The position numbers were made by a program, and so were the translations under genes. This document shows, one piece after another, positions 7,217-56,499 of a stretch of 64,000 nt of DNA; within the stretch, counting starts at the first letter, position 1, and every line of letters starts with the position of its first letter. Below the pieces are notes generated by a model that was not told where the DNA came from, ran no database searches, and worked only from the letters and a program-made list of their open reading frames with translations. This DNA is from Rariglobus hedericola (GTDB lineage: Bacteria > Verrucomicrobiota > Verrucomicrobiia > Opitutales > Opitutaceae). The stretch lies in contig NZ_VMBG01000002.1 of assembly GCF_007559335.1 (NCBI RefSeq), positions 372,001 through 436,000 on the forward strand, read 5' to 3'.

Positions 7217-7331
7217 CGACATAAGTATGAAGGAGCGCGGCGGGCTCGCATCCGGCATTGTCATGTGCACAGTGCGTGCGACATAGAAAAGATACGTAGA
7301 GCACGTTCCCTGTCCCTTTTTTAAACCAGTC

Positions 7332-7943
7332 GTGAAAATCCTCGCAGTTGAAGATGATCCGGTCGCCCGGGCGGTGTTGCACCAAGCCTTGCTACGCCTC
7401 GGCCATGAAGTCATCGAGGCCAAGGACGGCGCCGAGGCGTTGCGCGTGCTGGAAAAGGAACCCGTGCGTCTGATCGTGAGCGACTGGATGATGCCCGAGC
7501 TTGATGGTCTCGGCCTGTGCCGCGCGGTGCGTAACCGCGTGAATGCCGATTACGCCTACTTTATCCTGCTCACCAGCCGTGAGGCCGACGTGGACAACCA
7601 GCGCGAAGCCATCGAGGCGGGCGTGGATGATTTTCTGACGAAGCCGCTCGACCTCCAGGAAATCTGGATGCGCCTGCGCGTGGCCGAACGCATCCTGCGT
7701 TACGCGACGGAGGTGCGCCAGTTGGAGGCCTTTCTTCCTATCTGCGGCTACTGCAAAAAAGTCCGCGACGACCAAAACTACTGGCAGCAGATCGAGAGCT
7801 ATATCAACGAACGCACGGGCACCGACTTCAGCCACTCCGTGTGCCCCGATTGTTATCAACGCGTCGTGGTGCCCGAGCTCGAAAAACTCCGCGCCGGTGC
7901 GACGCCCGCCCCCGCAAAGCCCCGTGTCGAACGAACGAATTGA
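7332..7943 (+). CDS. Response regulator with C-terminal Cys-pair (zinc-ribbon-like) tail
   Basis: 203 residues from a GTG start. Residues 1-120 are a canonical receiver: VEDDP acidic pocket, phospho-acceptor Asp in SDWMMPELDG (about residue 52), LLTSR and FLTKPLD. There is no DNA-binding or enzymatic output domain. The last ~70 residues carry ICGYCKKVRDD, then FSHSVCPDCYQ, giving two CxxC pairs separated by a conserved-looking W/Y stretch. The same tail occurs in many response regulators and PAS proteins and probably binds a metal or forms a protein contact. It lies 115 bases after the hybrid kinase and is a likely partner for it. The 3' end overlaps slyX. Confidence 0.9.
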   Translation: MKILAVEDDPVARAVLHQALLRLGHEVIEAKDGAEALRVLEKEPVRLIVSDWMMPELDGLGLCRAVRNRVNADYAYFILLTSREADVDNQREAIEAGVDDFLTKPLDLQEIWMRLRVAERILRYATEVRQLEAFLPICGYCKKVRDDQNYWQQIESYINERTGTDFSHSVCPDCYQRVVVPELEKLRAGATPAPAKPRVERTN

Positions 7944-24718: not shown

Positions 24719-27700
24719 ATGAAACGTCTTGTTCCCCTGCGTCTGACCGGATGGGTGCTCGTATCCATAGCGATGCTGGCAACCAGTCTGTATGCTCAAG
24801 ATGCGGGTGCGTCACCAGCGCCGGCGCAGGCCGAGGCCTGGGTGCGGTGGATCGGCTGGGTCTTCGTGGTGATGGCACTGGGCGGTTTGCTCGTGTTTTG
24901 GATCAACCTCCGCCTGCAAGGACAGATCACGTTGCAGACCCGTGCGCTGCGCATCTCCGAGACGCGGATGCGGAATCTTTTTGAGAACACGCCGGTGGCG
25001 ATTGTGGAGCAGGACTTTTCGGCGGTCGCGAAATGGCTCGATGAACTTCGCAAGCAAGGCGTGCGCGACCTTTCGGTTCATTTCGCGGCACACCCCGAGT
25101 TGGTCGCGGCCAAGTTTAATCTTGTGCGCGTGATCGCCGCCAACCGCACCGTGCTCCGCCTCACGGGCGTTGAAGTCGTGCAGGAATACGAGGGCTTGAT
25201 CCGCGGCGTGCCAACGCCCGCGATGCTCGATACGTTCGCCGCTCAGATGCAGGCGATCTGGGCCGGTGACACGGAGATGACGCGCGAGTTGCGCTATCGC
25301 GGCATCGACAGCCTGGCGGGGCACAGCCTCATGCACTGGAGCGCGCCGCATGAAGACGGCCGCCCGGATTACGGACGCGTTCAAGTGGCTTTCACCGACC
25401 TGAGTGTGTTGCGCGCCACCGAGGAAAAATTGCGCGATGTCGAGGACCGCTGGCGGCTTGCCGTGATCGGCATCAACGCCGGTATCTGGGAGTATAATTT
25501 TGTGACGGGCGAGACATTCATCTCCGACCGCTGGCGCGAGATCATCGGTTATCCCGCGTCCGACATGACGAATGCGCGCGACGAATTCTGGCCGCGCATT
25601 CATCCGGAAGACGTGGCGTCGGTGCGGCAGGCGATGCGCGATTATCTGGAAGGCCACCGCTCCAGTTACCGCGTGGAATTCCGCATGCAGTGCAAGGACG
25701 GCAACTACAAGTGGATCCTGTCGCGCGGCATGGCGCTCTTCGATCAGGCGGGCAAACCGCAGCGTCTCGTCGGCTCGCACTCCGACATCGATGAACGCAA
25801 GCGCGCGGAGGAATCCCTGCGCTCTTCCGAGGAACGTTACCGCGTGCTCTTCGAGAACTGTCCGGTCGCCATCATCGAATACGATCTGCGCGGGTTGCGC
25901 GCCTGGCTCGACGAACTGCGGGCCGACGGCGTGGCGGAATTCGATGTGTTCGCTGATGCGAATCCCCAGGTGTTTGCCGAGGCGCTCAAGGGCTCGGCGA
26001 TGGTAGGCTTGAACCGCGAAACATTGGAGCTCGTTGGAGCCACGAGCAAGACCGAGGCGATTGAAGCCCTGCCGCGTATTCTTACCTCCGACATGGAAAA
26101 GGTCCGGCGCGCGCTCTGCCATGCGCTGTGGGAAGGTCGCAACGCCATTGAAGGTGAGATGCGCATCAACGCGCTCGACGGCACGCCGCGCCGCGTTTTC
26201 TACCGCTGGTGGGTTCCCTCGCTCGGCGGTGAATTGAGCTACGCCTGGACGCAGGTCGTGCTCGTGGATCTGACCGGTATCAAGCGCACCGAGGAGGCCC
26301 TGGCCGCCGAACGCGAGCGCCTCGCTGTGACGCTCCGCGCGATGGCCGAGGGCGTCATCACCACCGATACGCAAGGCCGCGTGCTCTTCCTGAACGAAGC
26401 CGCCGGCGAATTGACCGGTTGGACCGAGAACGCCGCCATCGGCCGACTGCTCGAAGATGTCTGCGTCATGCGCCACGAAAAAACGCGCCTGCCCGTGGCC
26501 GCGCCGGCCGCGGCCGCCGTGGCCTCGCACGCAGTCATTGATCTGCCCGCGAACACCGTGCTCCTGGACCGACAGGGATCGCCACGGGTGATCGAAGGCC
26601 GCTGCGCTCCCATCCATGACATGCACAGCCACGCGATCGGCGCGGTGCTGGTGTTGCGCGATGTGACCGAGCGGGCCCGCCTCGAAGGCGAAATCCTGCG
26701 CGCGTCGAAACTGGAATCTGTCGGCATTCTGGCCGGCGGCATCGCCCACGATTTTAATAATCTGCTTACCGTCGTGATGGGCAACATCACGTTGGCCACG
26801 CTCGATTCGCAGGCGATGGCCTCGGCCGGACGCTGGTTGCAGGACGCGGAGCGCGGTGTGATGCGCGCGCGTGATCTCACGCAGCAACTGCTGACCTTTG
26901 CGCGCGGCGGCGAGCCGGTGCGATCCGCGGTGCGGTTGCCGGAGATCGTCAAGGAAGCGGCCAACTTCGCGTTGCACGGCTCCAAGGTGCGTTGCGAGTT
27001 CGCGATCGAAGACGGCCTGTGGACCGCCGAAGTGGACAAAGGTCAAATCGGCCAAGTGGTGCAGAACCTCGTGATCAACGCCGTGCAGGCCATGCCCGAG
27101 GGCGGCGTCATGCACATTTCGATGCGCAACCAGCATCTGAACGCGCTGGCGGTGAGGCAGCTCGATGAAGGTAACTATCTGTGTATCGTCATTAGTGATA
27201 CCGGTGCGGGTATCCGGCCGGAGCATCTGGCGCGCATCTTCGATCCCTATTTTACGACGAAGCAATCGGGCAGCGGACTGGGGTTGGCGACGGTTTACTC
27301 GATCGTTCGCAAGCATCAGGGACACATTGAAGTGGAATCCGAAATCGGCCGCGGCACGCGCTTCCGGTTCTGGCTCCCGGCGGTGCCCGATGCGCGCCCG
27401 ACTGCGCCCGAGGTCGCGCACGCGCCCGACAACCTGACGGGCCGGGTATTGTTCATGGACGACGAAGAGCCGATCCGCGCGATGGCCGATGCGTTGCTCC
27501 GGCGCCTTGGGTTTGAGGTGACCTGTGTGGCCGACGGTCGCGAAGTGCTGCGCGTGTATGCCGAAGGGTTGAGCAACGGCACGCGGTATGACCTGGTGAT
27601 TATGGACCTGACGGTGCCCGGTGGCTTGGGCGGCAAGGAAGCCATGAGCGAGCTCTGCAAGCTGGACCCGATGGTCAAAGGCATCGTTTCGAGCGGATAC

Positions 27701-27826
27701 TCCAGCGACCCGGTGATGGCCAATTATCGCACCTATGGTTTCAGTGGAATGGTCGCCAAACCCTACCGCCTGACCGATCTGGCGAAGGCGATTCGCACCG
27801 TGCTCGAAGGCGGCGATATGGAATAA
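24719..27826 (+). CDS. Hybrid sensor histidine kinase with duplicated PAS-type sensor and one REC
   Basis: 1035 residues. An N-terminal helix (LTGWVLVSIAMLATSLYAQ) and a second (WIGWVFVVMALGGLLVFWI) bracket a short periplasmic loop. Two similar sensor units follow: MRNLFENTPVAIVEQDFSAV with AKWLDELRKQGV, and YRVLFENCPVAIIEYDLRGL with RAWLDELRADGV. Between them is a PAS_3-type domain (GIWEYNFVTGETFISDRWRE) and after them a classical PAS (MAEGVITTDTQGRVLFLNEA). The kinase core has LAGGIAHDFNNLLTVVMGNI (phospho-accepting His) and HATPase motifs DTGAGI and GSGLGLATVY. The C-terminal receiver has FMDDEEP and the Asp of IMDLTVPGGLGG. Phosphate probably returns from the receiver to an outside Hpt or regulator. 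The ligand is unknown. Confidence 0.92.
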   Translation: MKRLVPLRLTGWVLVSIAMLATSLYAQDAGASPAPAQAEAWVRWIGWVFVVMALGGLLVFWINLRLQGQITLQTRALRISETRMRNLFENTPVAIVEQDFSAVAKWLDELRKQGVRDLSVHFAAHPELVAAKFNLVRVIAANRTVLRLTGVEVVQEYEGLIRGVPTPAMLDTFAAQMQAIWAGDTEMTRELRYRGIDSLAGHSLMHWSAPHEDGRPDYGRVQVAFTDLSVLRATEEKLRDVEDRWRLAVIGINAGIWEYNFVTGETFISDRWREIIGYPASDMTNARDEFWPRIHPEDVASVRQAMRDYLEGHRSSYRVEFRMQCKDGNYKWILSRGMALFDQAGKPQRLVGSHSDIDERKRAEESLRSSEERYRVLFENCPVAIIEYDLRGLRAWLDELRADGVAEFDVFADANPQVFAEALKGSAMVGLNRETLELVGATSKTEAIEALPRILTSDMEKVRRALCHALWEGRNAIEGEMRINALDGTPRRVFYRWWVPSLGGELSYAWTQVVLVDLTGIKRTEEALAAERERLAVTLRAMAEGVITTDTQGRVLFLNEAAGELTGWTENAAIGRLLEDVCVMRHEKTRLPVAAPAAAAVASHAVIDLPANTVLLDRQGSPRVIEGRCAPIHDMHSHAIGAVLVLRDVTERARLEGEILRASKLESVGILAGGIAHDFNNLLTVVMGNITLATLDSQAMASAGRWLQDAERGVMRARDLTQQLLTFARGGEPVRSAVRLPEIVKEAANFALHGSKVRCEFAIEDGLWTAEVDKGQIGQVVQNLVINAVQAMPEGGVMHISMRNQHLNALAVRQLDEGNYLCIVISDTGAGIRPEHLARIFDPYFTTKQSGSGLGLATVYSIVRKHQGHIEVESEIGRGTRFRFWLPAVPDARPTAPEVAHAPDNLTGRVLFMDDEEPIRAMADALLRRLGFEVTCVADGREVLRVYAEGLSNGTRYDLVIMDLTVPGGLGGKEAMSELCKLDPMVKGIVSSGYSSDPVMANYRTYGFSGMVAKPYRLTDLAKAIRTVLEGGDME

Positions 27827-34362: not shown

Positions 34363-34762
34363 GGCGGATGTTGTAGCAGCTCCGTGCGTTGCATGAAATT
34401 ATAATTACAGGCGGGTTTTCGTCCTTCGTGGAAAAAGCGCACAAAGCCCCGCCCGTTTTTGAGGATGTAATCGGGGCGGATGTAGTTGATTATTTGATAC
34501 GAATTTCCTGGGCGGTTTTGCGGCTGTTGCCATGGTGTTGCCGAAGTCGTCCTGCCAACCAACCAAAAGGATCAAAACGTGGAGTGAAGAGGTGTTTCCC
34601 GACGGATGGAGGGGCTATGCACGGGTTTCCCTGTGCGCGGCCGTCTGGGTGGGTTACCTCAGATGGGGTGTTTGCCTTTGACCCTACAGGGTGTTTGGCC
34701 GAGTGAATAAGGTGCTGGAGCACCCTCTTTTTGGTCCGGGCACAAGCCCAACACTCACACAC
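34363..34762. other. 400-base divergent intergenic region
   Basis: This lies between the VWA gene (minus) and the Wsp-type operon (plus) and should hold both promoters. The left part (34385-34520) is AT-richer than its surroundings and may be the promoter region, but I cannot pick -35/-10 boxes with confidence. The right part (34600-34670) carries two hairpins described separately. I see no supportable gene in it. Confidence 0.5.
34619..34666 (+). other. Two consecutive hairpins upstream of the Wsp-type operon
   Basis: Hairpin one pairs GCACGGG (34619-34625) with CCC-T-GTGC (34629-34636), one bulged T. Hairpin two pairs CCGTCTGGGT (34641-34650) with ACC-T-CAGATGG (34656-34666), again with a bulged T at the same relative place. 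They lie about 100-140 bases before the wspA-like start and could be a leader RNA element. They do not match the GEMM c-di-GMP aptamer core. Confidence 0.35.
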
Positions 34763-36499
34763 ATGATTTGGTCCATCGGTAAAAAAATCCTGCTCGGTTA
34801 TCTGCTCGCCTTGCTGTTGCTGGCGTTGATCGGAGTCGGCGCGTTTCTCGGCGTGCGGGAGTTGTTGTCGGCCGCGGCCATCCGGACTCACACCTATCAG
34901 GTCATCGGCCAGATCGAGCAGATCGAACTGGAGATCGTGAATGCCGAGACGAGCCAGCGCGGCTATGTGTTATCCGGACAAGAAACGTATCTGGAGCCTT
35001 ACAAAGTGGCGGTCGGACAAGTCTCCGCCTCCATCGCGAAACTGGCCGAGCTCACCAAGGATAATCCCGAGCAACAGGCCCGCATCGCCCGCTTGGAAGT
35101 GCTCGCGGATGATAAAATGAAGGTGCTCGCCGAATCGATTTCCTTGCGTCGCAACGACGGCATGGACGCGGCCATGGCGCTTTTCCTGAAAGGCACCGGG
35201 AAGCAGATCATGGACAAAGTGCGCGCGCTCTCCGCCGAGCTGCGCAACACCGAGCTGGAGTTGCTGGCGGTGCGTTCGCTGCGCGCCGAAGCGGATGCGC
35301 GCCGTGTGAATTTAATCATCCTCGCGGGCACGCCGATTGCCGGCGTCATTTTATTGATCGTCGGACTGCTGGTGGCGCGCGGTATCGCCCGTCCTCTGGC
35401 CAGGATTACGCATGCCGCCGAGCAGATCGCATCGGGTGATCCGACGGTCGAATTGTCGTCCGCCGCCGGCCGCAGTGACGAGGTCGGTCAGCTCTCGCGC
35501 AGCTTTACGCGCATGGGCAAGGTGCTCGCCGAGGTCGCCGCCGTGAACACGCGCATCGCCCAGGGTGATCTCAGCGTGACCGTCACGCCGCAGTCCGCCT
35601 CCGATAAATTTGGCAACGCGCACCATCAGATGATCGATAAATTATCCCAGCTGGTCGGCGCCGTGCAGCGCGCCGGTTTGCAGGTCAACACCTCCGCCAC
35701 GGAGATCGCGGCGACTTCGAAACAGCAGCAGGCCACCGCGACGGAAATCGCCGCGACCACGACCGAGATCGGCGCCACGTCGCGTGAGATTTCCGCCACC
35801 TCGAAGGAACTCGTGCGCACCGTCAGCGAGGTCAACCGCGTGGCCGAGGAAACCGCGCAACTGGCCGGCAACGGCCAGAGCGGACTCGGTCGGATGGAAG
35901 GAACCATGCGCAACATCATGGACGCCTCGGGCACGATCTCTGGAAAGCTCGCGGTGCTGAATGAGAAAGCCACCAACATCAACGCGGTCGTCACCACGAT
36001 CACCAAGGTCGCCGACCAGACGAACCTGCTCTCGCTCAACGCCGCGATTGAAGCCGAGAAAGCCGGCGAATACGGCCTGGGCTTCGCGGTAGTTGCCACG
36101 GAAATACGCCGTCTCGCCGACCAGACCGCGGTCGCCACCTATGACATCGAACAGATGGTGAAGGAAATGCAGTCGGCGGTTTCGGCCGGCGTGATGGGCA
36201 TGGATAAATTCTCCGAAGAGGTGCGGCGCGGTGTGGATGAAGTGCGCCAGGTCGGCGCGCAACTCACGCAGATCATCCAGCAGGTGCAGGCCCTGACGCC
36301 GCGTTTCGAGGCGGTCAACGAAGGCATGCAATCGCAGTCCACCGGTGCGCAGCAGATCACCGAGGCGCTTTTGCAGCTCAGTGAATCGGCGCAGCAAACG
36401 GCGGAATCCCTGCGCAGTTCCAGCATCGCAATCGGGCATCTCAACGAGGCGGCCCGCGACCTCCAAAACGGCGTCGCCCGCTTCAAGCTTCGCGGCTGA
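34763..36499 (+). CDS. wspA: WspA-like methyl-accepting chemotaxis protein
   Basis: 578 residues from [15 protein letters not shown]. Topology: helix 1 ([18 protein letters not shown]), a periplasmic four-helix sensor with a CHASE3-like core ([19 protein letters not shown]), helix 2 ([15 protein letters not shown]), then a HAMP domain ([20 protein letters not shown]). The rest is a long cytoplasmic signalling helix, with tip [19 protein letters not shown] followed by [17 protein letters not shown]. First gene of an operon with the exact gene order of the Pseudomonas Wsp surface-sensing system. A role as membrane sensor feeding the CheA-like kinase follows from that order; the stimulus is unproven. 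Confidence 0.9.
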
Positions 36500-36523
36500 A
36501 CCAGGTTCCCGCCGCAACTTCCC

Positions 36524-36985
36524 GTGTCGCTTTTCCTTCAATTCGAGATTGGCGGCCACCGCTACTTGCTTGAGGCGAAGTGCGTGGCGGCGGTGCTGCC
36601 GATGCCGGAACTCAAGCCGGTGCCGGGCTCGCCGGAAGGCGTCGCCGGAGTGGCTAATTACCAAGGCGCGCCGGTGCCCGTGATCGATCTGTCGGCGCTC
36701 GCGACCGGTCGCGCGGCGGCCAATCGTCTGAGCACGCGGCTCGTGCTGGTGCGTTATCCGGCGGCGGATGGTGAAAAGCTGCTCGGGCTCGTCGCGGAAC
36801 GGGCGACGAGTGTGCTGCACGCCGACGACGCGGCGTTCACATCGGCGGGAGTCGAGGCGGCGCCCTGGCTGGGCGGGGTCACACCGGCGGCGGGTTCGCT
36901 GGCGCAACGGATCGAGATCGGGGCGTTGTTGCCGCCTGATTTGCGCGCGGTGCTTTTTCAGGCGGTCGAGGAGGAACGGGTATGA
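36524..36985 (+). CDS. wspB: CheW-like adaptor (WspB position)
   Basis: 153 residues from a GTG. CheW fold: SLFLQFEIGGHRYLLEAKCV, VAGVANYQGAPVPVIDLSAL and LVLVRYPAADGEKLLGLVAE. It couples the chemoreceptor to the CheA-type kinase. It ends within the start of the CheR gene (ATGA overlap), which supports translational coupling. A second CheW-like gene lies two genes on, matching the WspB/WspD pair of Wsp systems. Confidence 0.88.
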   Translation: MSLFLQFEIGGHRYLLEAKCVAAVLPMPELKPVPGSPEGVAGVANYQGAPVPVIDLSALATGRAAANRLSTRLVLVRYPAADGEKLLGLVAERATSVLHADDAAFTSAGVEAAPWLGGVTPAAGSLAQRIEIGALLPPDLRAVLFQAVEEERV

Positions 36986-38211
36986 ATGAGTCCGACATCG
37001 TGCCGCTTGAAAATTACCTGCGCGACACCATCGGGCTGGCGAGCGATTCGATCGGCCGCGGGCTGGTCATGCGCGTGGCGCAACGTTGCATGAGCGCGGC
37101 CGGCGCGCACACCGTGGCGGAGTATGTGGTGCGGTTGCGCAATGACAGCCGGCTGCGGCAGGTGTTGATCGAAGAACTGGTGGTTTCGGAGACGTGGTTT
37201 TTTCGAGACCGGCAGCCGTTTGAATTACTGGCGCGGCTGGCGTTGGACCGGTCACGTGCACGTCCGCTGCGCGTGCTGAGCATGCCGTGCTCGACCGGTG
37301 AAGAACCTTATTCGATCGCGATGAAGTTGCTGGGCGCGGGGCTGGCATCCGATGCATTCCATATCGACGCGGTGGATATCAGCGAAGGCGCGCTGGCGGT
37401 GGCGAAGCACGCCAGCTACGGCTCGAATGCGTTCCGCGGTGACGAAGGCCGCGCGCGCGATATGTGGTTCACGCCGGCGGGGGCGCGCTGGTATCTGGAT
37501 GAACGCGTGTCGTCGCAGGTGAAATTCCATCACGGCAATCTGTTCACCTTCGCGCCCGAGGTGCGTTACGATTTTATTTTCTGCCGCAACCTGCTGATTT
37601 ATTTTGATGCGCCGATGCAGGGCACGGCGGTCCGGCTTTTGCAGGACCTGTTGGTGGATGATGGGGTTTTGTTCGTGGGGCACGCGGAGGCGGCGGTGCT
37701 GTTGCGCGAAGGCCTCGTGTCCTGGCCGGAGTTGCGGTCGTTTGCGTTTACACGACGGGCGGATCGGCCGGTGAAAGCGAAAGCCGTCTCCACGGCGCAG
37801 GCGCATTCCCGCGTGCGTGCGCCGTCGTTGCCGAAAGAACGGCTGCCGTTTTCGGATGTGGTGCGGCGAACGGAGCGGACGTTTACGGTTCAGACGGAGG
37901 ATGCATCGCTGGCGGAGATCCAGTCGATGGCCGACGCCGGACGAGTCGATGAAGCGGCGCTGCTCGCGAAGGCGCATCTGGCGACGCATGAACCCTCGGC
38001 GGAAGCGTTTTATCTGCTCGGGATCATCCATGACGCACGCGGCGATGCGGGTGGAGCGGAGGCGGCTTACCGGAAAACACTTTATCTGAATCCGAAGCAT
38101 GACGGGGCGATCACGCATCTGATCTTGTTGCTGGATAAACGGAGCGATCCCGAGGCGTTGAGACTGAGGCAACGGGCGCGGCGTCCGTCGGGCCGGGGAG
38201 GTAACGCATGA
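36982..38211 (+). CDS. wspC: CheR-type receptor methyltransferase with TPR tail (WspC position)
   Basis: 409 residues. The CheR N-terminal helical domain is followed by the SAM-binding catalytic domain: SETWFFRDRQPFE, the motif-I loop VLSMPCSTGEEPYSIAM, VDISEGALAVAK and YDFIFCRNLLIYFDAPMQ. After a Pro/basic linker the C-terminal ~90 residues form TPR units (EAFYLLGIIHDARGDAGGAE, AAYRKTLYLNPKHDGAITHL). WspC proteins also carry C-terminal TPRs. It uses S-adenosylmethionine to methylate receptor glutamates and so tunes adaptation. Four-base overlaps link it to both neighbours. Confidence 0.92.
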   Translation: MNESDIVPLENYLRDTIGLASDSIGRGLVMRVAQRCMSAAGAHTVAEYVVRLRNDSRLRQVLIEELVVSETWFFRDRQPFELLARLALDRSRARPLRVLSMPCSTGEEPYSIAMKLLGAGLASDAFHIDAVDISEGALAVAKHASYGSNAFRGDEGRARDMWFTPAGARWYLDERVSSQVKFHHGNLFTFAPEVRYDFIFCRNLLIYFDAPMQGTAVRLLQDLLVDDGVLFVGHAEAAVLLREGLVSWPELRSFAFTRRADRPVKAKAVSTAQAHSRVRAPSLPKERLPFSDVVRRTERTFTVQTEDASLAEIQSMADAGRVDEAALLAKAHLATHEPSAEAFYLLGIIHDARGDAGGAEAAYRKTLYLNPKHDGAITHLILLLDKRSDPEALRLRQRARRPSGRGGNA

Positions 38212-38798
38212 GCGAAGAGAGTCCCTCCACGCCGCCGAACGGCGGCGGCATGCGTCGTCGTGTGGTTGATCCTGAAGTTGGTGCGCGGCTGCTGGATCGT
38301 GAGCCGCCTCCGGGTTACCGCGCGGAGTGGACGGCGTATCTGTCGAAGCCTCCGAAGAAGGCCGAGGTCACGACGGATTCGGCGCTGGTGTTTCGCGTCG
38401 GCGCAGAGTGGCTCGCCCTGCCGGCGAGCTGGGTGGGGGAAGTCGCGCCGGTGCGTGCGGTGCATTCGGTGCCGCACCGGCGCGGACGTGCGTTGGAAGG
38501 ATTGGTGAACGTGCGCGGCGAATTGCTGCCGTGTTTCTCATTGGACGGATTGCTGGGCATCGATGCCGCGGACGGAGTCACCGGTTCACGACGCCTCGTC
38601 GTGGCGGGACAAGGCGCGCGGCGGCTGGTGTTTCGGGCCGACGAAGTCTTTGGCGTGATCCGTTATGACGCGGCGCGCAGTCTGCCATCGCCCGGACGCC
38701 TGCGGCATGTGAAGCACCTGCTGGAGTGGAAAGGCCGCACGCCGGGGCTGCTCGATGCGGAGAGCGTATGGAACGCACTCGAAAGGAGTCTCGCATGA
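38208..38798 (+). CDS. wspD: Second CheW-like adaptor (WspD position)
   Basis: 196 residues. A ~60-residue N-terminal extension (RRRVVDPEVGARLLDREPPP, EWTAYLSKPPKKAE) precedes a CheW domain: LVFRVGAEWLALPASWVGEV, HSVPHRRGRALEGLVNVRGE, LLPCFSLDGLL and RLVFRADEVFGV. The extension with LLDR and W-A-Y-L is also seen in WspD-type proteins. It overlaps the CheR stop and the CheA start by four bases each. Confidence 0.88.
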   Translation: MSEESPSTPPNGGGMRRRVVDPEVGARLLDREPPPGYRAEWTAYLSKPPKKAEVTTDSALVFRVGAEWLALPASWVGEVAPVRAVHSVPHRRGRALEGLVNVRGELLPCFSLDGLLGIDAADGVTGSRRLVVAGQGARRLVFRADEVFGVIRYDAARSLPSPGRLRHVKHLLEWKGRTPGLLDAESVWNALERSLA

Positions 38799-41029
38799 GC
38801 GACGACTTGAGTAATTTTTCGTTGATCGAGCTCTTCAAGCTCGAAGCCGAAGGGCAGATCGCGCTGCTCACGCGGCATCTGCTGGCGCTCGAGCAAGGTC
38901 CGGCCGGGCCTGAAGTGCTGGAGGCGATGATGCGCGCGGCGCATTCGTTGAAAGGTGCGGCGCGTATCGTGGGGCTCACGCCGGCGGTGCAGGTTGCGCA
39001 CGTGATGGAGGATTGTTTTGTGGCGGCCCAGCAGGATCGTGCGCGACTGGGACGTGCGGAGGTTGACGCGCTGTTGCAAGGCGTGGACTGGCTCGCGCAA
39101 TTGTCGCGGCTCAACGAGGCCGACGTGGAAAGCTGGACCACGGCGCATGCGGATCAACTCGACGCATATGTGAGGGAATTAGCGGGGTCGAAGACGCCTG
39201 TCGTGAACGCGGCGCCGCCCGTGCCGGTGGCGGCCCACGATGTTCCCAAGGCGGCGACGGTGGAGCCCGAGCCGATGGACCGGGTGTTGCGGGTGACCGC
39301 GGAAAAACTCAACCGCTTGCTCGGCCTGGCTGGCGAATCGCTGGTGGAGTCGCGCCGCTTGCAACCGTTCAACCGCAGCCTGCTTCGCCTCAAACGCGTG
39401 CAACAGGAACTCGGTCGATCGATTGACCGGTTGCGCGAGGTGCTGGGTGATGAGGCGGGTGAACGCGTGGGTGGCTATCTGCGCGAAGTGCAGTCGCGCG
39501 CGGCGGAGAGCCGGGAGCTGCTCCAGGTTCGCATGGAAGAGATGGACCGCTTTGACCGCGCGGCGACGCAACTCTCCGGACGACTTTATCGTGAGGCGCA
39601 GGCCGTGCGCATGAGGCCGTTTGCCGATGGCGTGGCGGCGTTTCCGCGGATGGTGCGCGATCTCTCACATCAATTGGGCAAGGACGCGCGGCTGACGATT
39701 GCGGGTGAACAAACCCAGGTTGATCGTGACGTGCTCGAAAAAATCGAGGCGCCGCTGACGCACCTTTTGCGCAATGCGGTCGATCACGGATTAGAGACGG
39801 CTGAGACACGCATCAACACGGGCAAATCCGCGTGCGGTGAACTGCGGCTCGAGGCGCGTCACCGTGCGGGCATGCTGATCGTTACGGTATCCGACGACGG
39901 GCGCGGTGTGGATATCGAAGCTGTGCGGGCGGCAGTCGTGCGCAAAAAACTCACGACTGCGGAAGTGGCGTCAAAACTCTCCGCACAGGAAGTGCTCGAT
40001 TTTCTTTTTCTCCCTGGGTTTTCACTAAAAACCGAAGTCACCGAAATTTCCGGACGAGGCGTGGGACTCGACGTGGTGCAGTCGATGCTCAAGGCGCTGC
40101 GCGGCACGGTGCGCATCCACACGCAGTCCGGCCACGGCACGACGTTTGAGCTTCATCTGCCGGTGACGCTTTCGGTGGTGCGGGCGTTGCTCGTGGAAAT
40201 CGCAGGTGAACCGTATGCGCTGCCGCTGGCCTCGGTCGCGCGGGTGTTGCGCGTGGAACGTGCGCAGATCGAGACGGCGGAGGGACGTCCGCATTTTGCC
40301 TTCGACGGCGGGCGGGCGGCGCTGGTGTCTGCGCGCGAAGTGCTGGAGCTCGACGAGGCGGGTGCGGGCGGCGACAGCTGGTGCGTGGTGGTGCTCGGCG
40401 ACAAAGGCGCGCGGCACGGACTGGTGGTGGATAAATTTCTCGGCGAACGGGAGCTGGTGGTGCAGCCGCTCGATCCGCGTCTGGGCAAGGTCGAGGACAT
40501 CGCGGCGGCGGCCGTGCTCGAAGACGGTGCACCCGCGCTGATTCTCGATGTGCAAGACCTGCGCCGCTCCATGGGCCGGCTCACCAGTGAAGGCGCGGCC
40601 GGACGCTGGTCGCGTGCGAAGGCGGCGAGCGCGGATGTGCGCCGGCAGCGCGTGCTGGTGGTTGATGATTCGCTTACGGTGCGCGAGTTGGAGCGCAAAC
40701 TTCTCGTCTCGCGCGGCTATGACGTGACGGTGGCGGTTGACGGCATGGAAGGCTGGAATGCGGCTCGCACGGGCGACTTCGACCTGGTGATCACGGATGT
40801 CGACATGCCGCGCCTGGACGGCATCGAATTGGTGAAACTCATGAAGGCCGACGATCGTCTGCGGACGCGGCCGGTGATGATTGTTTCTTACAAAGATCGT
40901 GAGGAAGACCGGCGTCGTGGCCTTGATGCAGGCGCGGATTATTATCTGACGAAGGGCAGTTTTCACGACGAGAGTTTGCTGGACGCGGTGGTCGATCTGA
41001 TCGGTCCCGTGGGGGAGGCGGGCGCATGA
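38795..41029 (+). CDS. wspE: CheA-type hybrid histidine kinase with C-terminal receiver (WspE position)
   Basis: 744 residues from the ATG overlapping the previous stop. Hpt domain with phospho-His at residue 50 (RAAHSLKGAARIVGL), no P2 domain, dimerisation region (RVTAEKLNRLLGLAGESLVE), HATPase (HLLRNAVDHGLETAETRI; DDGRGVD; GRGVGLDVVQSML), and a CheW-like domain. The terminal receiver (VLVVDDSLTVRELERKLL; Asp in VITDVDMPRLDG; TKGSF near the end) completes the WspE arrangement. It phosphorylates its own receiver, the CheB-type methylesterase and, by analogy, the WspR-type receiver encoded downstream. Confidence 0.93.
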   Translation: MSDDLSNFSLIELFKLEAEGQIALLTRHLLALEQGPAGPEVLEAMMRAAHSLKGAARIVGLTPAVQVAHVMEDCFVAAQQDRARLGRAEVDALLQGVDWLAQLSRLNEADVESWTTAHADQLDAYVRELAGSKTPVVNAAPPVPVAAHDVPKAATVEPEPMDRVLRVTAEKLNRLLGLAGESLVESRRLQPFNRSLLRLKRVQQELGRSIDRLREVLGDEAGERVGGYLREVQSRAAESRELLQVRMEEMDRFDRAATQLSGRLYREAQAVRMRPFADGVAAFPRMVRDLSHQLGKDARLTIAGEQTQVDRDVLEKIEAPLTHLLRNAVDHGLETAETRINTGKSACGELRLEARHRAGMLIVTVSDDGRGVDIEAVRAAVVRKKLTTAEVASKLSAQEVLDFLFLPGFSLKTEVTEISGRGVGLDVVQSMLKALRGTVRIHTQSGHGTTFELHLPVTLSVVRALLVEIAGEPYALPLASVARVLRVERAQIETAEGRPHFAFDGGRAALVSAREVLELDEAGAGGDSWCVVVLGDKGARHGLVVDKFLGERELVVQPLDPRLGKVEDIAAAAVLEDGAPALILDVQDLRRSMGRLTSEGAAGRWSRAKAASADVRRQRVLVVDDSLTVRELERKLLVSRGYDVTVAVDGMEGWNAARTGDFDLVITDVDMPRLDGIELVKLMKADDRLRTRPVMIVSYKDREEDRRRGLDAGADYYLTKGSFHDESLLDAVVDLIGPVGEAGA

Positions 41030-42069
41030 GAATCGCGATCGTCAACGACATGCCGCTGGCGGTGGAAGCGATGCGTCGCGTGCTGGCGACCGAGAAGCGG
41101 CACTCGCTCAGCTGGACGGCACGGGACGGCGCCGAGGCGGTGGAGAAATGCGCGGCCGACACGCCCGATCTCATCCTGATGGATTTGATCATGCCGGTGA
41201 TGGACGGCGTGGAGGCGACGCGGCGCATCATGTCCGAGACCCCCTGTGCCATCCTCGTGGTGACGGCTACGGTCGAGGGCAACGCCACGCGCGTTTACGA
41301 AGCACTCGGCGCCGGGGCGCTCGATGCCGTGGAGACGCCCGCGTTTGGGAAAGGATCCGGATTTCTTCTGGTGAAGCTCGATCTGCTCGAGCGCCAGATC
41401 ATGGGCCGGCAGTCGACTTCACCTTTGTTTTCGGCGGCGGCGATGGAGAAAAAAGTCGAGACTCCGGCGGATGGTGCGCAAGCGGCGGACTGGCTGGTGG
41501 CGATCGGGGCCTCCGCGGGTGGTCCGGCTGCGCTGGCCAAAGTGCTGGCGGGGCTGCCGGCGGATTTTCCCGGGGCGATTGTGATCGTGCAGCATATCGA
41601 CACAGCGTTTGCGGCGGGGTTGATCTCGTGGCTGGACAGCCAGTGTGCGTTGAAAGTCGTGGCGGCAGGCGACGGTGTGTATCCATTGCCCGGGCACGTG
41701 TATGTCGCCAGCGGCGACCGGCATGCGGTGATCAGCCCCTCCGGACTGCTGGTGCAAACCGATGAACCACGAGGATGCATCTATTTGCCGAGCATAGACG
41801 TTTTTCTCACCAGCATGGCATCCAACTGGAAAAAAGCAGGAACCGGGCTTCTCCTCACGGGTATGGGTCGTGACGGTGCGGCCGGTTTGCTACGCCTGCG
41901 CCAGGCGGGTTTTTTCACGATCACGCAGGATCGGGAGAGCTCCGCCGTGTATGGGATGCCCAAAGCAGCCGCCGAACTGAATGCGGCATCACAGGTGCTT
42001 TCTCTGCAGTCCATTTCCGGTCAGTTGCGACAACTCGCGCTTGATAAAACCAAATTGAAGCGCCGCTAA
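41026..42069 (+). CDS. wspF: CheB-type protein-glutamate methylesterase (WspF position)
   Basis: 347 residues overlapping the CheA stop by four bases. Receiver at residues 1-120 with phospho-acceptor Asp53 (LILMDLIMPVMDG). After a linker the methylesterase domain has the catalytic triad in GASAGGPAAL (Ser), IVIVQHID (His) and GMGRDGAAGLLRLRQAG (Asp). It removes methyl groups from the receptor and resets the array. In Pseudomonas, loss of WspF locks the system on. It is the sixth gene of the unit; the next starts 15 bases later. Confidence 0.93.
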   Translation: MRIAIVNDMPLAVEAMRRVLATEKRHSLSWTARDGAEAVEKCAADTPDLILMDLIMPVMDGVEATRRIMSETPCAILVVTATVEGNATRVYEALGAGALDAVETPAFGKGSGFLLVKLDLLERQIMGRQSTSPLFSAAAMEKKVETPADGAQAADWLVAIGASAGGPAALAKVLAGLPADFPGAIVIVQHIDTAFAAGLISWLDSQCALKVVAAGDGVYPLPGHVYVASGDRHAVISPSGLLVQTDEPRGCIYLPSIDVFLTSMASNWKKAGTGLLLTGMGRDGAAGLLRLRQAGFFTITQDRESSAVYGMPKAAAELNAASQVLSLQSISGQLRQLALDKTKLKRR

Positions 42070-42084
42070 GTTACCCGATTTTTT

Positions 42085-44196
42085 ATGTCCGACATTTCCT
42101 ACAGGCCGAACGCAGCCTCTTATCATTCGATGGTATTGCTCGTGGACGATCAGGCCATCGTGGCCGAGGCGGTGCGGCGCAGTCTGGCTGGCAACTCCGA
42201 CATCGATTTCCATTATTGCGCCGATCCGTTGCAGGCACAGGCGGTGGCGGCGCAGATCAAGCCGTCGGTGATCCTGCTGGATCTGGTGATGCCCGGCATG
42301 GACGGACTGGAGTTGGTGCGCCGGTTCCGGGCGACGCCGGCGACTGCGGAAATCCCGATCATTGTGCTGTCGGTGAAGGAAGACCCGCAGGTGAAGAGCC
42401 AGGCCTTCGAGGCGGGCGCGACCGATTATCTGGTCAAGCTGCCTGACAAGATCGAGCTCGTGGCCCGCGTGCGCGTGCATGCGAAGGCGTGGATCAACCA
42501 ACAGCAGCGCGACGAGGCCTACCGTGCGTTGCGCGAGAGCCAGCAGCGACTGGTGGACGGCAACACGGCGTTGATCGCGTTGAACCAAAAACTGGCCGAG
42601 GCGACGCAGGCGAAGTCGGAATTTCTCGCCAACATGAGCCATGAAATCCGCACGCCGATGAACGGCGTGATCGGCATGACCTCGTTGTTGCGCGAGACGC
42701 CGCTTGATCCCGAGCAGCGTGATTATGTGGAGACGATCCGGTCCTCGGGCGACGCCCTGCTGACGATCATCAACGACATCCTGGATTTTTCGAAGATCGA
42801 ATCGGGCAAGCTGCAACTGGAGCACCGTCCGTTTCTGCTGGAGAAAGTCGTGTCGGATGCGCTTGAGCTGCTGCAACCCAAGGCGGCCGAGAAAAATCTG
42901 GATCTGGCGGTGCACATGGATGCGTCGCTGCCCGACCTGGTGATCGGCGATGTCACGCGGCTGCGCCAGATCCTGGTGAATCTCGCGGGCAACTCGCTCA
43001 AGTTCACGTCGCACGGCGAAGTGATTATCGACGTGGTTCCGGTGTCCGGACCGCATCCGTCATTCCGCGACAGCTTTGCCGCCGAGGAAGGTGCCTACGT
43101 GCAGTTCAACGTGCGCGACACGGGCATCGGTATTCCCGCGGAAAAACAAGACCGGCTGTTCAAGTCGTTCACGCAGGTGGACAGCTCGACGACGCGCCAT
43201 TACGGCGGCACGGGTCTTGGGCTGGCGATCTGCAAACGGCTCGTGGAGCTGATGGGCGGGCTCATCTGGGTGGAGAGCGAGCCGGGCAAAGGCTCGACCT
43301 TCAGCTTCACGCTGTTGTTGCAACCTGCGGTGCTGGCGGAACCGCCGCGTTGGCGCGGACAGCAGCCCGCATTTGAGGGCAAGCGCCTCCTGATCATCGA
43401 GGACAATGCGACGTTGCGTTCGCTGTTCACGACGAAGGCGGCGTATTGGAGTATCACATCGACGGGTGTGGCTTCGCTGGCGGAGGCCGATGCGGTGCTG
43501 GGCGGCGCGTCGAAGCCTGATGCTGTGTTGCTGGATCGCGAACTGCCGCGGGAGGACGTGCCGGCCTGGATCGCCGCTTTGCGTGCGAAGCCCGAGACGA
43601 GCGCGCTGCCGGTGCTGTTGTATTCAAATTTACGGGGACGCACGGGGCAGTTGCCCGAGGCGTTGCGGGCCGGCGTGGAGCAGCTGCAAAAACCGCTGCG
43701 CCGCCAGGACCTGTTCGATGCCTTTCACCAAGTCTTCACGGGGAGTGCGCTGCCGGCCGCGCGCACGGTGGCGATGGGGCGTTTTGACGAACGGATGGCC
43801 ACGCGCCTGCCGTTGCGACTGCTGCTGGCCGATGACAACGCGGTGAATCAGAAGGTGGGCGCGGCATTGCTGCGCAAACTCGGTTACAGCACCGATGTCG
43901 TGGCTGATGGCAGCCAGGTGATTGCGGCGCTCGAGAAGACGGATTATGATCTGGTGCTGCTCGATGTGCAGATGCCAGAGATGGACGGTTACGAGGCGGC
44001 GAGGGCGATTTGTGCGCGGGCTTCGGAGACCGGCTGGGCGCGTCCGCGGATGGTCGCCATGACCGGCAACGCGATGCAGGGTGACCGGGAAAAGTGCCTT
44101 GAGGCGGGCATGGATGATTACATCACCAAGCCGGTGCGTATCGAAGATCTGGTTACAGCTCTGGAGAAATGGGGTCCGGCTCCCGAGGCGAAGTGA
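42085..44196 (+). CDS. Hybrid kinase with WspR-like N-terminal receiver: REC-HisKA-HATPase-REC-REC
   Basis: 703 residues. The first ~165 residues resemble the receiver and linker of the WspR diguanylate cyclase: [20 protein letters not shown], phospho-acceptor Asp66 in [30 protein letters not shown], then [17 protein letters not shown]. Where WspR would continue into GGDEF, this protein has HisKA (His186 in [15 protein letters not shown]), HATPase ([28 protein letters not shown]), a weak receiver ([14 protein letters not shown]; Asp in [12 protein letters not shown]) and a canonical receiver ([32 protein letters not shown]). It is the last gene of the Wsp-type operon and its likely output: array-driven control of a phosphorelay rather than c-di-GMP synthesis. 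That function is inference from domains and position. Confidence 0.93.
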
Positions 44197-53308: not shown

Positions 53309-53920
53309 TCAGTCTTCGACCAGCTGCTTGAAGGCGAAGGCGGCTACCGCGCCGCCGGTGAGATTGGCGGCCAGATAAATGCCGAGCTGGCTGATGGACT
53401 CGAAGCCCATGACGACCACGCCCAAACCGACCGCCGGGTTGAACGCGCCACCCGAGATGCCGCCGACCGAGAACGCGCCGGCGACGACCGTGAAACCAAT
53501 CGCGAGGCCGTAGAAAGAGTTATCGAGCGTGCCCTTGGAGGTGGCGGTGTTAAGCACGACCCAGGCGAGGGCGAAGGTGAAGAGGAACTCGACGACGAGG
53601 GAGTTAACCACGTTGTGATCAGCGGGCATCTGGATGCGATTAAGCAGGAGATTCACGAGAAGGCCGGCGACGAGGCCGGCGAGCATCTGGGCAATCCAGT
53701 AAGGGATCACGTCCTTCAAGAGGAGTTTGCCGCGCAACCACACGGCAAGCGTGACCGCGGGATTGAAGTGGCCGCCGGAGACATGGCCGCCGGCAAAAAT
53801 CATGACCATAAGTGACGCACCGATGGCGAGCGGTGCCAGCGGGCTGCCGCTACGGACGGCCATGCCGACCGTGAAGACCAGGAAGAACGTGCCGATGAAC
53901 TCGACGATGTATTTTTTCAT
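53309..53920 (-). CDS. MIP-family aquaporin/aquaglyceroporin beside the ars operon
   Basis: 203 residues from MKKYIVEFIGTFFLVF; an upstream in-frame start would add a hydrophilic leader. Six helices and two half-helices with the NPA boxes GHFNPAVTLA and GAFNPAVGLG. Short for the family (usually 230-280) but complete at both boxes. It is divergent from arsR with 130 bases between. In Sinorhizobium-type ars operons an aquaporin (AqpS) lets arsenite leave the cell, and the position here suggests the same. No arsenic specificity can be read from the pore residues by eye. Confidence 0.9.
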   Translation of the reverse strand: MKKYIVEFIGTFFLVFTVGMAVRSGSPLAPLAIGASLMVMIFAGGHVSGGHFNPAVTLAVWLRGKLLLKDVIPYWIAQMLAGLVAGLLVNLLLNRIQMPADHNVVNSLVVEFLFTFALAWVVLNTATSKGTLDNSFYGLAIGFTVVAGAFSVGGISGGAFNPAVGLGVVVMGFESISQLGIYLAANLTGGAVAAFAFKQLVED

Positions 53921-54015
53921 AAAGAAGTGATCGGCTTTGAGATGGAGCCGCCCGAGCCAGAAAGCAACGTCGCTCTCAGTGTGTGACAAATGGGCGGCGG
54001 CACGGTTTGGTGCTT

Positions 54016-54045
54016 GATCTATATTCCGATAAAGGAATGTAGATC
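54016..54045. promoter_or_regulatory. Putative ArsR operator
   Basis: GATCTATATTCC (54016-54027) and GGAATGTAGATC (54034-54045) are inverse complements except for one position, with a six-base centre, five bases before the arsR start. Its place in the divergent aquaporin/arsR gap fits autoregulation by ArsR of both transcripts. Confidence 0.6.
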
Positions 54046-54050
54046 ATGCC

Positions 54051-54440
54051 ATGAAACTGGTGCAAATCTACCAATGCCTGTGCGATGAGACGCGGCTGCG
54101 TCTGTTGCATCTCCTGCTGCAAGGGCCGCTGTGCGTGTGTCATTTTCAAGGTTTGCTGGGCGAGCCTCAGGTAAAGATTTCGAAGCACCTCGGCTACCTG
54201 AAGACGCGTGGACTGGTGACGGCGAAGCGCTCGGGCAATTGGATGATTTATGCGTTGCCGGCGGAGAAAACCCGGTCGGTTGAGTTGAAGGCAAACCTGG
54301 CGTGCCTGCAGGACTGCGCTGCGGAGAATGCGGTATTTAAACGCGACCTGGCACGGTTGAAGAAACTCGATCTGGAGTGCGCGCCGGCGGCGGTCGCCGA
54401 GGCCTGCGGAACGGGCAAGGGCAAGACGTGCTGCTGCTAA
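54051..54440 (+). CDS. arsR: ArsR-family metalloregulator
   Basis: 129 residues. Winged helix-turn-helix with QIYQCLCDETRLRLLHLLLQ, the metal-site helix GPLCVCHFQGLLGE (CVC, as in ELCVCDL of arsenite sensors), KISKHLGYLKTRGLVTAKRS recognition region and the wing SGNWMIYALP. Extra Cys residues occur in ACLQDCAAEN and in the terminal KTCCC. It represses the operon and is released by arsenite bound at the Cys pair. First gene of arsR-DUF6428-arsC-acr3. Confidence 0.92.
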   Translation: MKLVQIYQCLCDETRLRLLHLLLQGPLCVCHFQGLLGEPQVKISKHLGYLKTRGLVTAKRSGNWMIYALPAEKTRSVELKANLACLQDCAAENAVFKRDLARLKKLDLECAPAAVAEACGTGKGKTCCC

Positions 54441-54451
54441 AAATTGATTTT

Positions 54452-54946
54452 ATGACGACAACAACGACTAACGCTGAACAGGCGACTTTGCTGATTTCCG
54501 AGGTATGTGCGGTGCTGAAGGCGGCGCCCGGCCTGCCGATCACAGTGATCTGGCCGGATGGTGAGCCGATCGAGGCGCATTTTCACGTGACCGAAGTCGG
54601 CCGTGTGCAGAAAGACTTTGTCGATTGCGGTGGCACGGTGCGCCGAGTGACGACCTGCCTGCTGCAGACGTGGGTGGGCGACGATGTCGATCACCACATC
54701 ACGGGTGCGAAGCTGCTGAAGGCGTTTGAATTCGCCGCGCCGGTGCTGAAGGGTGAAGACTTGCCGATGGAGTTGGAATACGAGGCCTGCAATGTTGTGA
54801 CGCTACGCGTGGTAGCGGTCGAGAATACCGGCGCGGCGCTGATTGTGCGACTGGCGGGCAAGCACACCGATTGTCTCGCGAAGGATTTGTGCATTCCCAA
54901 TCCGAAGAGCGACGGCACCTGCACGCCTGGATCTGGCTGCTGTTGA
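54452..54946 (+). CDS. DUF6428-family protein
   Basis: 164 residues from MTTTTTNAEQATLLIS, 11 bases after arsR. EAHFHVTEVGRVQKDFVDCG, CLLQTWVGDDVDHHITGAKL and ELEYEACNVVTLRVVAVENT match the DUF6428 family, whose members occur in arsenic operons between arsR and arsC. The C-terminus is Cys-rich (DCLAKDLCIPNP, GTCTPGSGCC). Function unknown; arsenic binding or delivery is a reasonable guess. It precedes arsC by 27 bases. Confidence 0.85.
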   Translation: MTTTTTNAEQATLLISEVCAVLKAAPGLPITVIWPDGEPIEAHFHVTEVGRVQKDFVDCGGTVRRVTTCLLQTWVGDDVDHHITGAKLLKAFEFAAPVLKGEDLPMELEYEACNVVTLRVVAVENTGAALIVRLAGKHTDCLAKDLCIPNPKSDGTCTPGSGCC

Positions 54947-54973
54947 AACCTGAAACGATTTTCACCTGATTTT

Positions 54974-55438
54974 ATGAGCACTGAAAAACCCACTGTTTTG
55001 ATTCTTTGCACGGGCAACTCCTGCCGCAGCCATCTCGCCGAGGGATTGTTGCGGGCGGCGGCTGGTGATTTTTTAAATGTCGTCAGCGCTGGATCGAAGC
55101 CGGCCGGCTATGTGCATCCGATCGCGATCGAGGTGATGAACGAGATCGGCGTCGATATCTCCGCGCACACCTCGAAGCACATGAACGAGTTTCTTGAGGG
55201 AACGGTTGAGACCGTCATCACGGTGTGTGGCAACGCGGATCAGGCGTGTCCGATTTATCCCGGGCAAGTGAACCGTCACCACTGGCCGTTTGAGGATCCG
55301 GCGCATGCGACCGGAACGGATGAGGAAAAGATGGAGATGTTCCGCCGCGTGCGGAATGAGATCCGTCGCACGTTCACGGCGTATGCCGACGGACGTCGCG
55401 ACCAGTTCAAGAGTGCTGCCAAGAAAGGTGCGGCGTGA
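54974..55438 (+). CDS. arsC: Arsenate reductase, low-molecular-weight phosphatase type
   Basis: 154 residues. The P-loop [13 protein letters not shown] (CX5R) near residue 13 is the arsenate-binding site; [14 protein letters not shown] holds the two further Cys used in the thioredoxin-coupled relay. [16 protein letters not shown] and the preceding [12 protein letters not shown] fit the family. It reduces arsenate to arsenite in the cytoplasm, the form exported by the ACR3 protein whose gene overlaps it by four bases. Confidence 0.95.
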
Positions 55439-56499
55439 GCGGACTCACGAAACAACTGTCGTTTCTCGATCGCTGGCTGACGGCGTGGATTTTTCTGGCG
55501 ATGGCCGTGGGCGTGGCGCTGGGGCGTTTCGCTCCGGCGCTGGCGGAGACGCTGACGTCGTGGAGCGTGGGGACGACATCCGTGCCGATTGCGGTTGGGT
55601 TGATTTTGATGATGTATCCGCCGCTGGCGAAGGTGCGTTACGAGGAGTTGGCGGATGTGTTTCGCGACAAGAAGGTGCTCGGGCTTTCGCTGGTTCAGAA
55701 CTGGCTGGTCGGGCCGGTGCTGATGTTTGCGCTGGCGGCGATTTTCCTGCGAGACCAGCCGGAGTATTTTGCGGGGCTCGTCTTGGTGGGCATCGCGCGG
55801 TGCATCGCAATGGTGATTGTGTGGAACGACCTGGCGGGCGGGAGTCGCGAGTATTGCGCGGGGCTGGTGGCGGCGAATGCGTTGTTTCAGGTGTTCGCGT
55901 TTGCACCGCTTGCGTGGCTGTTTCTGAAGGTGCTGCCGCCGCTGGTGGGGGTGGATCTTGGTGTGCTGGATTTGTCGGCGATCACCATCGGGAGCATCGC
56001 GTGGAGCGTGTTTGTTTACCTGGGGATTCCGTTCATTGCGGGATGGTTGACGCGCGCAATTTTACGGCGCGGATCGGCGGAACGGGTGGCGTGGTTTGAC
56101 GATAAATTTCTGCCGGCGATCAGTCCGATCACGCTGGGGGCGTTGTTGTTCACGATTGTCGTGATGTTCAGCTTGCAAGGAGAGCAGGTGCTGGCGCGTC
56201 CGCTGGACGTGTTGCACATCGCGGTGCCGCTGGTGGTTTATTTCGCGATCATGTTCACGGTCACGTTTTGGATGAGCGTGAAGGCGGGGGCGGATTACGC
56301 GAAGGCAACGACGCTGGGGTTCACGGCGGCGGGTAATAATTTTGAACTGGCGATCGCGGTGGCCGTCGGAGTCTTCGGGCTGACGTCGGGCGCAGCGTTT
56401 GCGGCGGTGGTCGGACCCTTGGTGGAAGTGCCGGCGCTGATCGCGCTAGTGGCGGTCGCGCTGTGGTGGAAGCGGCGGGTGGGTGATGCAGTGAAATAA
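55435..56499 (+). CDS. acr3: ACR3-family arsenite efflux permease
   Basis: 354 residues from a GTG overlapping arsC. About ten helices. Family signatures: [60 protein letters not shown] and the conserved Cys helix [20 protein letters not shown], then [20 protein letters not shown]. Uses the proton-motive force to expel arsenite. Last gene of the operon; the aldo/keto reductase is convergent 39 bases later. Confidence 0.95.

Follow-up and report, generated by a model that had tools for sequence, protein, structure and literature searches.

A hybrid histidine kinase with a WspR-type receiver as the probable output protein of a Wsp-type chemosensory operon in Verrucomicrobiota

The last gene of an operon in the stretch of Rariglobus hedericola DNA analysed here (64,000 nucleotides, hereafter the window) encodes a hybrid histidine kinase of the architecture REC-HisKA-HATPase-REC-REC. 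This protein is probably the output protein of a complete Wsp-type (ACF-class) chemosensory operon in Verrucomicrobiota, standing in the place of WspR and carrying the receiver of WspR. As part of the same reading of the whole circuit, the operon would most likely act through a His-Asp relay and not through c-di-GMP. In textbooks, Wsp is the pathway that links contact with a surface to c-di-GMP. The window kinase is a real, conserved variant of the H-type Wsp output, with another kinase family, two C-terminal receivers and a new phylum, and the variant itself is without earlier description in the literature examined. New is also that in Verrucomicrobiota the Wsp receiver is found on kinases or PP2C phosphatases and never, in our sample, on GGDEF domains, contrary to the reported restriction of Wsp to beta- and gamma-proteobacteria. 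Complete wsp operons occur in many genera of a second phylum, beyond that described range.

The genes upstream of the kinase gene are assigned as follows:

34691..36499, + strand, wspA-like chemoreceptor CHASE3-HAMP-MCPsignal, 602 aa as called, the true start of which may lie further downstream (Pfam; same position in relatives)
36524..36985, + strand, wspB-like CheW (Pfam)
36982..38211, + strand, wspC-like CheR methyltransferase with a weak TPR match (Pfam)
38208..38798, + strand, wspD-like CheW (Pfam)
38795..41029, + strand, wspE-like hybrid CheA with Hpt (His50), HATPase, CheW and REC, the presumed phosphodonor (Pfam, identity to WspE)
41026..42069, + strand, wspF-like CheB methylesterase with REC (Pfam)

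The gene order from 34691 to 42069 is that of wspA-F, and by Pfam and coordinates the wspABCDEF synteny (MCP, CheW, CheR-TPR, CheW, CheA-REC, CheB) is complete in the window. Since several of the wsp genes overlap by 4 bases, their co-transcription is likely. The window WspE is about 50-58% identical (over 77-99% of the length) to WspE of Variovorax, Azoarcus, Mesorhizobium, Cupriavidus and Burkholderia; the next CheAs among the sequences collected do not exceed 38% identity to it. All six Wsp components exceed 35% identity, counted over the best local segments, to those of Cupriavidus, Mesorhizobium, Novosphingobium, Variovorax and Azoarcus, which places the operon above the component identity to proteobacterial Wsp of at least 30% used as the criterion of Wsp membership (PMC8552884). 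At 53309-56499 the window also holds what looks by eye like an arsenic-type cluster of an aquaporin, an ArsR-like regulator, a low-molecular-weight arsenate reductase and an ACR3-like transporter.

The features of the kinase gene are:

42085..44196, + strand, REC-HisKA-HATPase-REC-REC output kinase, 703 aa, last gene of the operon (ORF, Pfam, alignment)
42124..42486, + strand, REC1, residues 14-134, WspR-type receiver (PDB match to WspR, tree, alignment)
42280-42282, + strand, REC1 phosphoacceptor Asp66; further REC1 residues are Asp21/22 and Lys118 (alignment)
42448..42693, + strand, continuous helix, residues 122-203, predicted to comprise REC1 alpha5, linker and DHp helix with His186 (AlphaFold model, conservation)
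42610..42807, + strand, HisKA/DHp, residues 176-241 (Pfam)
42640-42642, + strand, phosphoacceptor His186 (alignment)
42946..43323, + strand, HATPase_c catalytic domain, residues 288-413 (Pfam, alignment)
43384..43752, + strand, REC2, residues 434-556, degenerate receiver without the MPxMDG motif (alignment, conservation)
43813..44163, + strand, REC3, residues 577-693, conserved relay receiver (alignment, conservation)
43963-43965, + strand, REC3 Asp627 (alignment)

The open reading frame extends from the ATG at 42085 to the stop at 44196 (703 codons) and begins 15 bp after the wspF-like CheB gene. Pfam assigns to it three Response_reg stretches in addition to HisKA and HATPase_c; a GGDEF match is absent and HisKA, HATPase and REC stand in its place. 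This bears out the sequence-only reading, in which the GGDEF domain of WspR was replaced by HisKA, HATPase and two receivers and the order REC-HisKA-HATPase-REC-REC was given. Asp66 and His186 had also been placed correctly; together with Asp21, Asp22 and Lys118 they are invariant in an alignment of 11 homologues. Mean pairwise identity among the homologues is 70% in REC1, 80% in the linker, 69% in the kinase core, 36.5% in REC2 and 70.5% in REC3, which marks the linker as the most constrained part, REC3 as the conserved relay receiver and REC2 as drifting. REC2 is poorly conserved and lacks MPxMDG, yet its Asp is kept and its Lys mostly kept; judged from this alignment it is a degenerating receiver. 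Two more hybrid kinase genes in the window (5639-7664 and 27044-27793) are paralogues of the core of the output kinase.

In a phmmer search against PDB, residues 14-165 matched WspR of P. syringae (3I5A, E=1.6e-62) and of P. aeruginosa (3BRE, E=1.9e-61) in an alignment that is ungapped over this range and includes the linker helix, followed by PleD as the next chain (1e-20). The part shared with WspR is about 150 ungapped residues long and takes in the receiver and the linker helix up to its midpoint; the place after wspF is also the same. The output of WspR is a diguanylate cyclase, whereas the window protein has as its output a hybrid kinase that carries two additional receivers. Against WspR, REC1 reaches 210 bits, and other receivers of its own genome reach about 50 bits against REC1; as background, the best receiver of three Burkholderiales genomes reaches 66 bits and the Wsp-type receivers of the window's phylum 114-307 bits. 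In a tree of 88 receivers all Wsp receivers, REC1 among them, fall into one group of 62 rows (support 99/98), outside of which lie REC2, REC3 and nearly all control receivers; one long-branched control (L012) lies inside the group, and the forks within it are poorly resolved. By these scores and this tree REC1 is a true WspR-type receiver, closer to WspR than to ordinary hybrid-kinase receivers, and the earlier statement that the N-terminal part resembles WspR up to residue 165 holds. It is extremely improbable that an ordinary hybrid kinase with a generic receiver came to lie after wspF by chance: such REC-HK-REC-REC kinases do occur elsewhere (L012, L017), but the PDB scores and the receiver tree rule out a generic hybrid-kinase receiver, and the linkage to wspA-F is repeated in many genera.

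An AlphaFold model of the output kinase (monomer, mean pLDDT 83, from a 26-sequence alignment with few WspR-type receivers) shows residues 122-203 as one helix, which extends from alpha5 of REC1 through His186. Structure prediction, named as a check in the sequence-only reading, thus gives an unbroken predicted helix from REC1 into the dimerisation domain of the kinase. The distance from Lys118 to His186 is 68 residues in this family. The corresponding distance is 61 in L172; Burkholderia WspH has 33, and unrelated REC-kinases have 47, 54 and 110. These distances are all 5 modulo 7 and therefore whole heptads apart; exceptions are 48 (L064), 63 (L151, with another H-box type) and 65 (L012, the receiver of which lacks its Lys). 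A heptad rule for such linkers has already been published for Rec-kinases (PMC13269768) and for Rec-GGDEF proteins (PMC8041772), and the Lys-to-His distance was chosen as the measure after the data had been seen. Heptad phasing was therefore dropped as a discovery and serves here as a consistency check that supports the mechanism. Foldseek against PDB returned ShkA as the best match (E=1e-37, 34% identity), with LvrB among the top matches.

The signal is proposed to run as follows. WspA, WspB, WspD and WspE would sense the stimulus, and WspE, as judged from orthology, would phosphorylate Asp66 of REC1. Phosphorylation would alter the dimer formed by REC1 and the way in which the alpha5-linker-DHp helix is packed, where the helix is predicted and the switch is modelled on the LvrB and Rec-GGDEF structures. 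Autophosphorylation of His186 would be switched in consequence, more probably on than off. From His186 the phosphate would then move to REC3, at Asp627, and from there to an HPt and a response regulator that are separate proteins. For REC2, a structural or inhibitory role as a pseudo-receiver, similar to that of ShkA, is more likely than one as a relay station.

The same circuit could be wired so that phosphorylation of REC1 turns the kinase off or towards phosphatase activity, which we consider unlikely, if still a serious option. Its precedent comes from an ACF pathway of R. centenum, in which CheA3 phosphorylates REC1 of the kinase CheS3 and turns CheS3 off (PMC3868531). CheS3 resembles the window kinase, by its description, in having an N-terminal receiver phosphorylated by an ACF-pathway CheA (PMC3868531), but it is not part of a Wsp operon, may sense through PAS and passes its phosphate to CheY3. 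Against an off-switch stands LvrB of Leptospira (Rec-HK, 8VC9), which follows the same helix layout and heptad rule and is turned on by receiver phosphorylation: its structures show that a coiled coil is formed and the catalytic domain is freed (PMC13269768). WspR itself is likewise activated. As in the window kinase, the receiver of LvrB lies directly upstream of DHp-CA and is joined to it by one helix; held against the LvrB type, the window kinase has its predicted continuous REC-DHp helix at 122-203 and its Lys-His distance in the common phase. Unlike the window kinase, LvrB has no C-terminal receivers, its receiver is not of the WspR type and its driver is the hybrid kinase LvrA instead of a CheA.

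REC1 might instead be an internal phosphate sink fed by His186 and not an input for WspE. Fused receivers do serve as sinks in CheA3 and CheAY2 (PMC3868531), but REC1 is WspR-type over its whole length and is encoded beside the WspE gene, and the usual acceptor in the family of the output kinase looks like REC3 and not REC1, so that a sink appears improbable.

A relay that leaves through REC3 needs an HPt. The window genome has four Hpt matches: one is WspE, two belong to larger proteins, and the fourth is a lone HPt of 119 aa (L181:9394-9753) on another contig than the output kinase; this last is no more than a candidate for the relay partner of REC3. It belongs to a cluster in the same genome (L181:5832-9753) with a REC-HK, a lone receiver and, by eye, a GspE/PilB-like ATPase, and the proteins of this cluster are possible relay partners of the output kinase. 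No further receiver gene was found next to that of the kinase, either in the window or in most of the relatives. The genome encodes one GGDEF protein and each of six other tested genomes of the family with the output kinase encodes one or two, as compared to 12 in one Burkholderiales genome with WspR. The low count fits an output other than c-di-GMP; this is only a correlation, and Burkholderia likewise has a kinase output.

ShkA of Caulobacter (6QRJ, HK-REC1(pseudo)-REC2) shares the HK-REC-REC module with the window kinase (phmmer match 5e-75), and the first C-terminal receiver is degenerate in both proteins; the solved ShkA chain has no N-terminal receiver, unlike the window kinase. In ShkA c-di-GMP is bound by the pseudo-receiver, at a site that probably includes Tyr338, and the linker carries a DDR motif (PMC7010744). 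The position of Tyr338, as read from the phmmer alignment, is not Tyr in REC2 of the window kinase, and gating of REC2 by c-di-GMP as in ShkA is thus unsupported. The window kinase has DER where ShkA has DDR, but DER is not kept by the homologues.

The sequence-only reading had regarded the wiring of a Wsp receiver to a kinase as not known from characterised Wsp systems. This does not stand, since WspH, CheS3, the kinases of CheR-TPR clusters and LvrB have all been published and the wiring in the window is of a known kind. In B. cenocepacia the wsp output WspH (WspHRR) has a histidine kinase instead of the DGC module (PMC4324302, PMC8552884); according to a survey, WspH is confined to Burkholderia and Wsp to beta- and gamma-proteobacteria (PMC8552884). 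In CheR-TPR clusters about 40% of the response regulators include a kinase module, and it has been proposed that the receiver governs this kinase (PMC3447774).

WspH is the closest parallel in type: like the window kinase, it is a wsp output in which a histidine kinase, and not GGDEF, is attached to a WspR-type receiver. This likeness would also suit orthology of the two, in which a kinase replaced GGDEF once, long ago, and was then inherited or transferred, but such a history is very improbable. The WspH sequences come from replicons of B. cenocepacia (L152) and B. multivorans (L153). Their kinase core is only 24-26% identical to that of the window kinase, as against 40-50% for hybrid kinases of other phyla. 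WspH has 377 aa with REC and kinase core and no C-terminal receivers, its joint between REC and the phosphoacceptor His is 35 residues shorter, and its gene lies upstream of wspA, whereas the window kinase has two extra receivers and is encoded by the last gene. Furthermore, Burkholderia WspE nests among the WspR-bearing operons. Orthology is ruled out by kinase identity, joint, architecture and gene position, and from these sequence differences we conclude that the kinase outputs of the window operon and of Burkholderia WspH arose independently.

A WspR-type receiver fused to a kinase is present in 10 other genomes of the same family (the G035 copy is cut short inside the kinase) and in two named Verrucomicrobiales MAGs (L009, L010). 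A complete wsp operon precedes the REC-kinase gene in L127, L128, L130-L135, L241-L243, L246, L248 and L253. The phylum of the relatives is taken from named homologues, which are Verrucomicrobiales MAGs and Opitutaceae kinases. Sampling at phylum, class and family level gave 67 distinct Wsp-type receivers, 33 of them fused to kinases and 30 to PP2C/SpoIIE (31 with L119), the rest other or alone; these counts, made by motif on fetched loci, are of the matches listed, and some matches may be missing. Fusion to GGDEF occurred in none of the 67 receivers sampled in the window's phylum. The sample outside the phylum, nearly all proteobacterial, contained 36 GGDEF proteins and 9 kinases. Pfam recognised SpoIIE (PF07228) in L159 and L160, REC-HK-REC in L157 and L165, REC-HK in L172 and REC alone in L171.

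In a tree of 45 WspE and three outgroup CheAs, the latter on long branches, the proteobacterial operons with GGDEF fall inside the kinase-bearing Verrucomicrobiota, and the WspH operons of Burkholderia fall there with them; the nesting group comprises 13 rows (98/99), including L133, L135 and L250. Holding the Verrucomicrobiota together is rejected weakly (AU p=0.023, for a group picked after the tree had been seen). With a weak rejection, a post hoc group and long outgroup branches, the idea of a derived GGDEF is a lead, and the tree hints weakly that the GGDEF of WspR is the derived output. More broadly, and tentatively, WspA-F with a WspR-type receiver might be an old, output-agnostic cassette of the Verrucomicrobiota, in which one heptad-phased helix would drive hybrid-kinase relays, an RsbU-like PP2C partner switch and a NarL-type pair, the GGDEF of Pseudomonas being a later proteobacterial swap; we lean slightly against this larger picture. 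If the outputs are truly interchangeable, the question arises what Wsp controls in bacteria that have hardly any enzymes for c-di-GMP, and the system would provide a natural domain-swap series of one receiver with different outputs on one helix.

Fusion of the WspR-type receiver to PP2C/SpoIIE was seen in about half of the sampled Verrucomicrobiota (L158-L164, L166-L170, L175, L252), and the full wspABCDEF lies in front of REC-PP2C in 9 of the 14 loci checked. Near the REC-PP2C Wsp output of L169 there are an RsbW-like HATPase_c_2 gene and a STAS-domain gene (L169:10496-11441), which suggests an RsbU-V-W partner switch. At L250:8226-10351 wspABCDEF is followed by REC-PAS-HisKA_3-HATPase and an adjoining REC-LuxR regulator (Pfam), apparently a Wsp system that feeds a NarL-type pair. 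A stand-alone WspR-type receiver of 142 aa follows wspABCDEF at L171:3027-3452.

Small-genome Pseudomonadota (L226, L228-L230; L236-L239) contain WspR-like receivers (51-55% identity) joined to AHDLRNP-type kinases; no wsp operon was found on the contig stretches fetched. B. cenocepacia CMCC(B)23006 (NZ_CP091013.1) carries the WspH operon (L152) and, about 300 kb away, a second locus (L140) with a CheB-like gene and a WspR-like REC-GGDEF; L140 is ruled out as WspH and represents a GGDEF-type locus. The presence of both loci in one genome contrasts with the Wsp survey, which reported no genome with both WspR and WspH systems (PMC8552884). On alphaproteobacterial plasmids of Mesorhizobium, Novosphingobium and a Hyphomicrobiales (L142, L143, L156) the wsp operon is complete and includes REC-GGDEF; these plasmids lie beyond the beta- and gamma-proteobacteria to which Wsp was reported to be confined.
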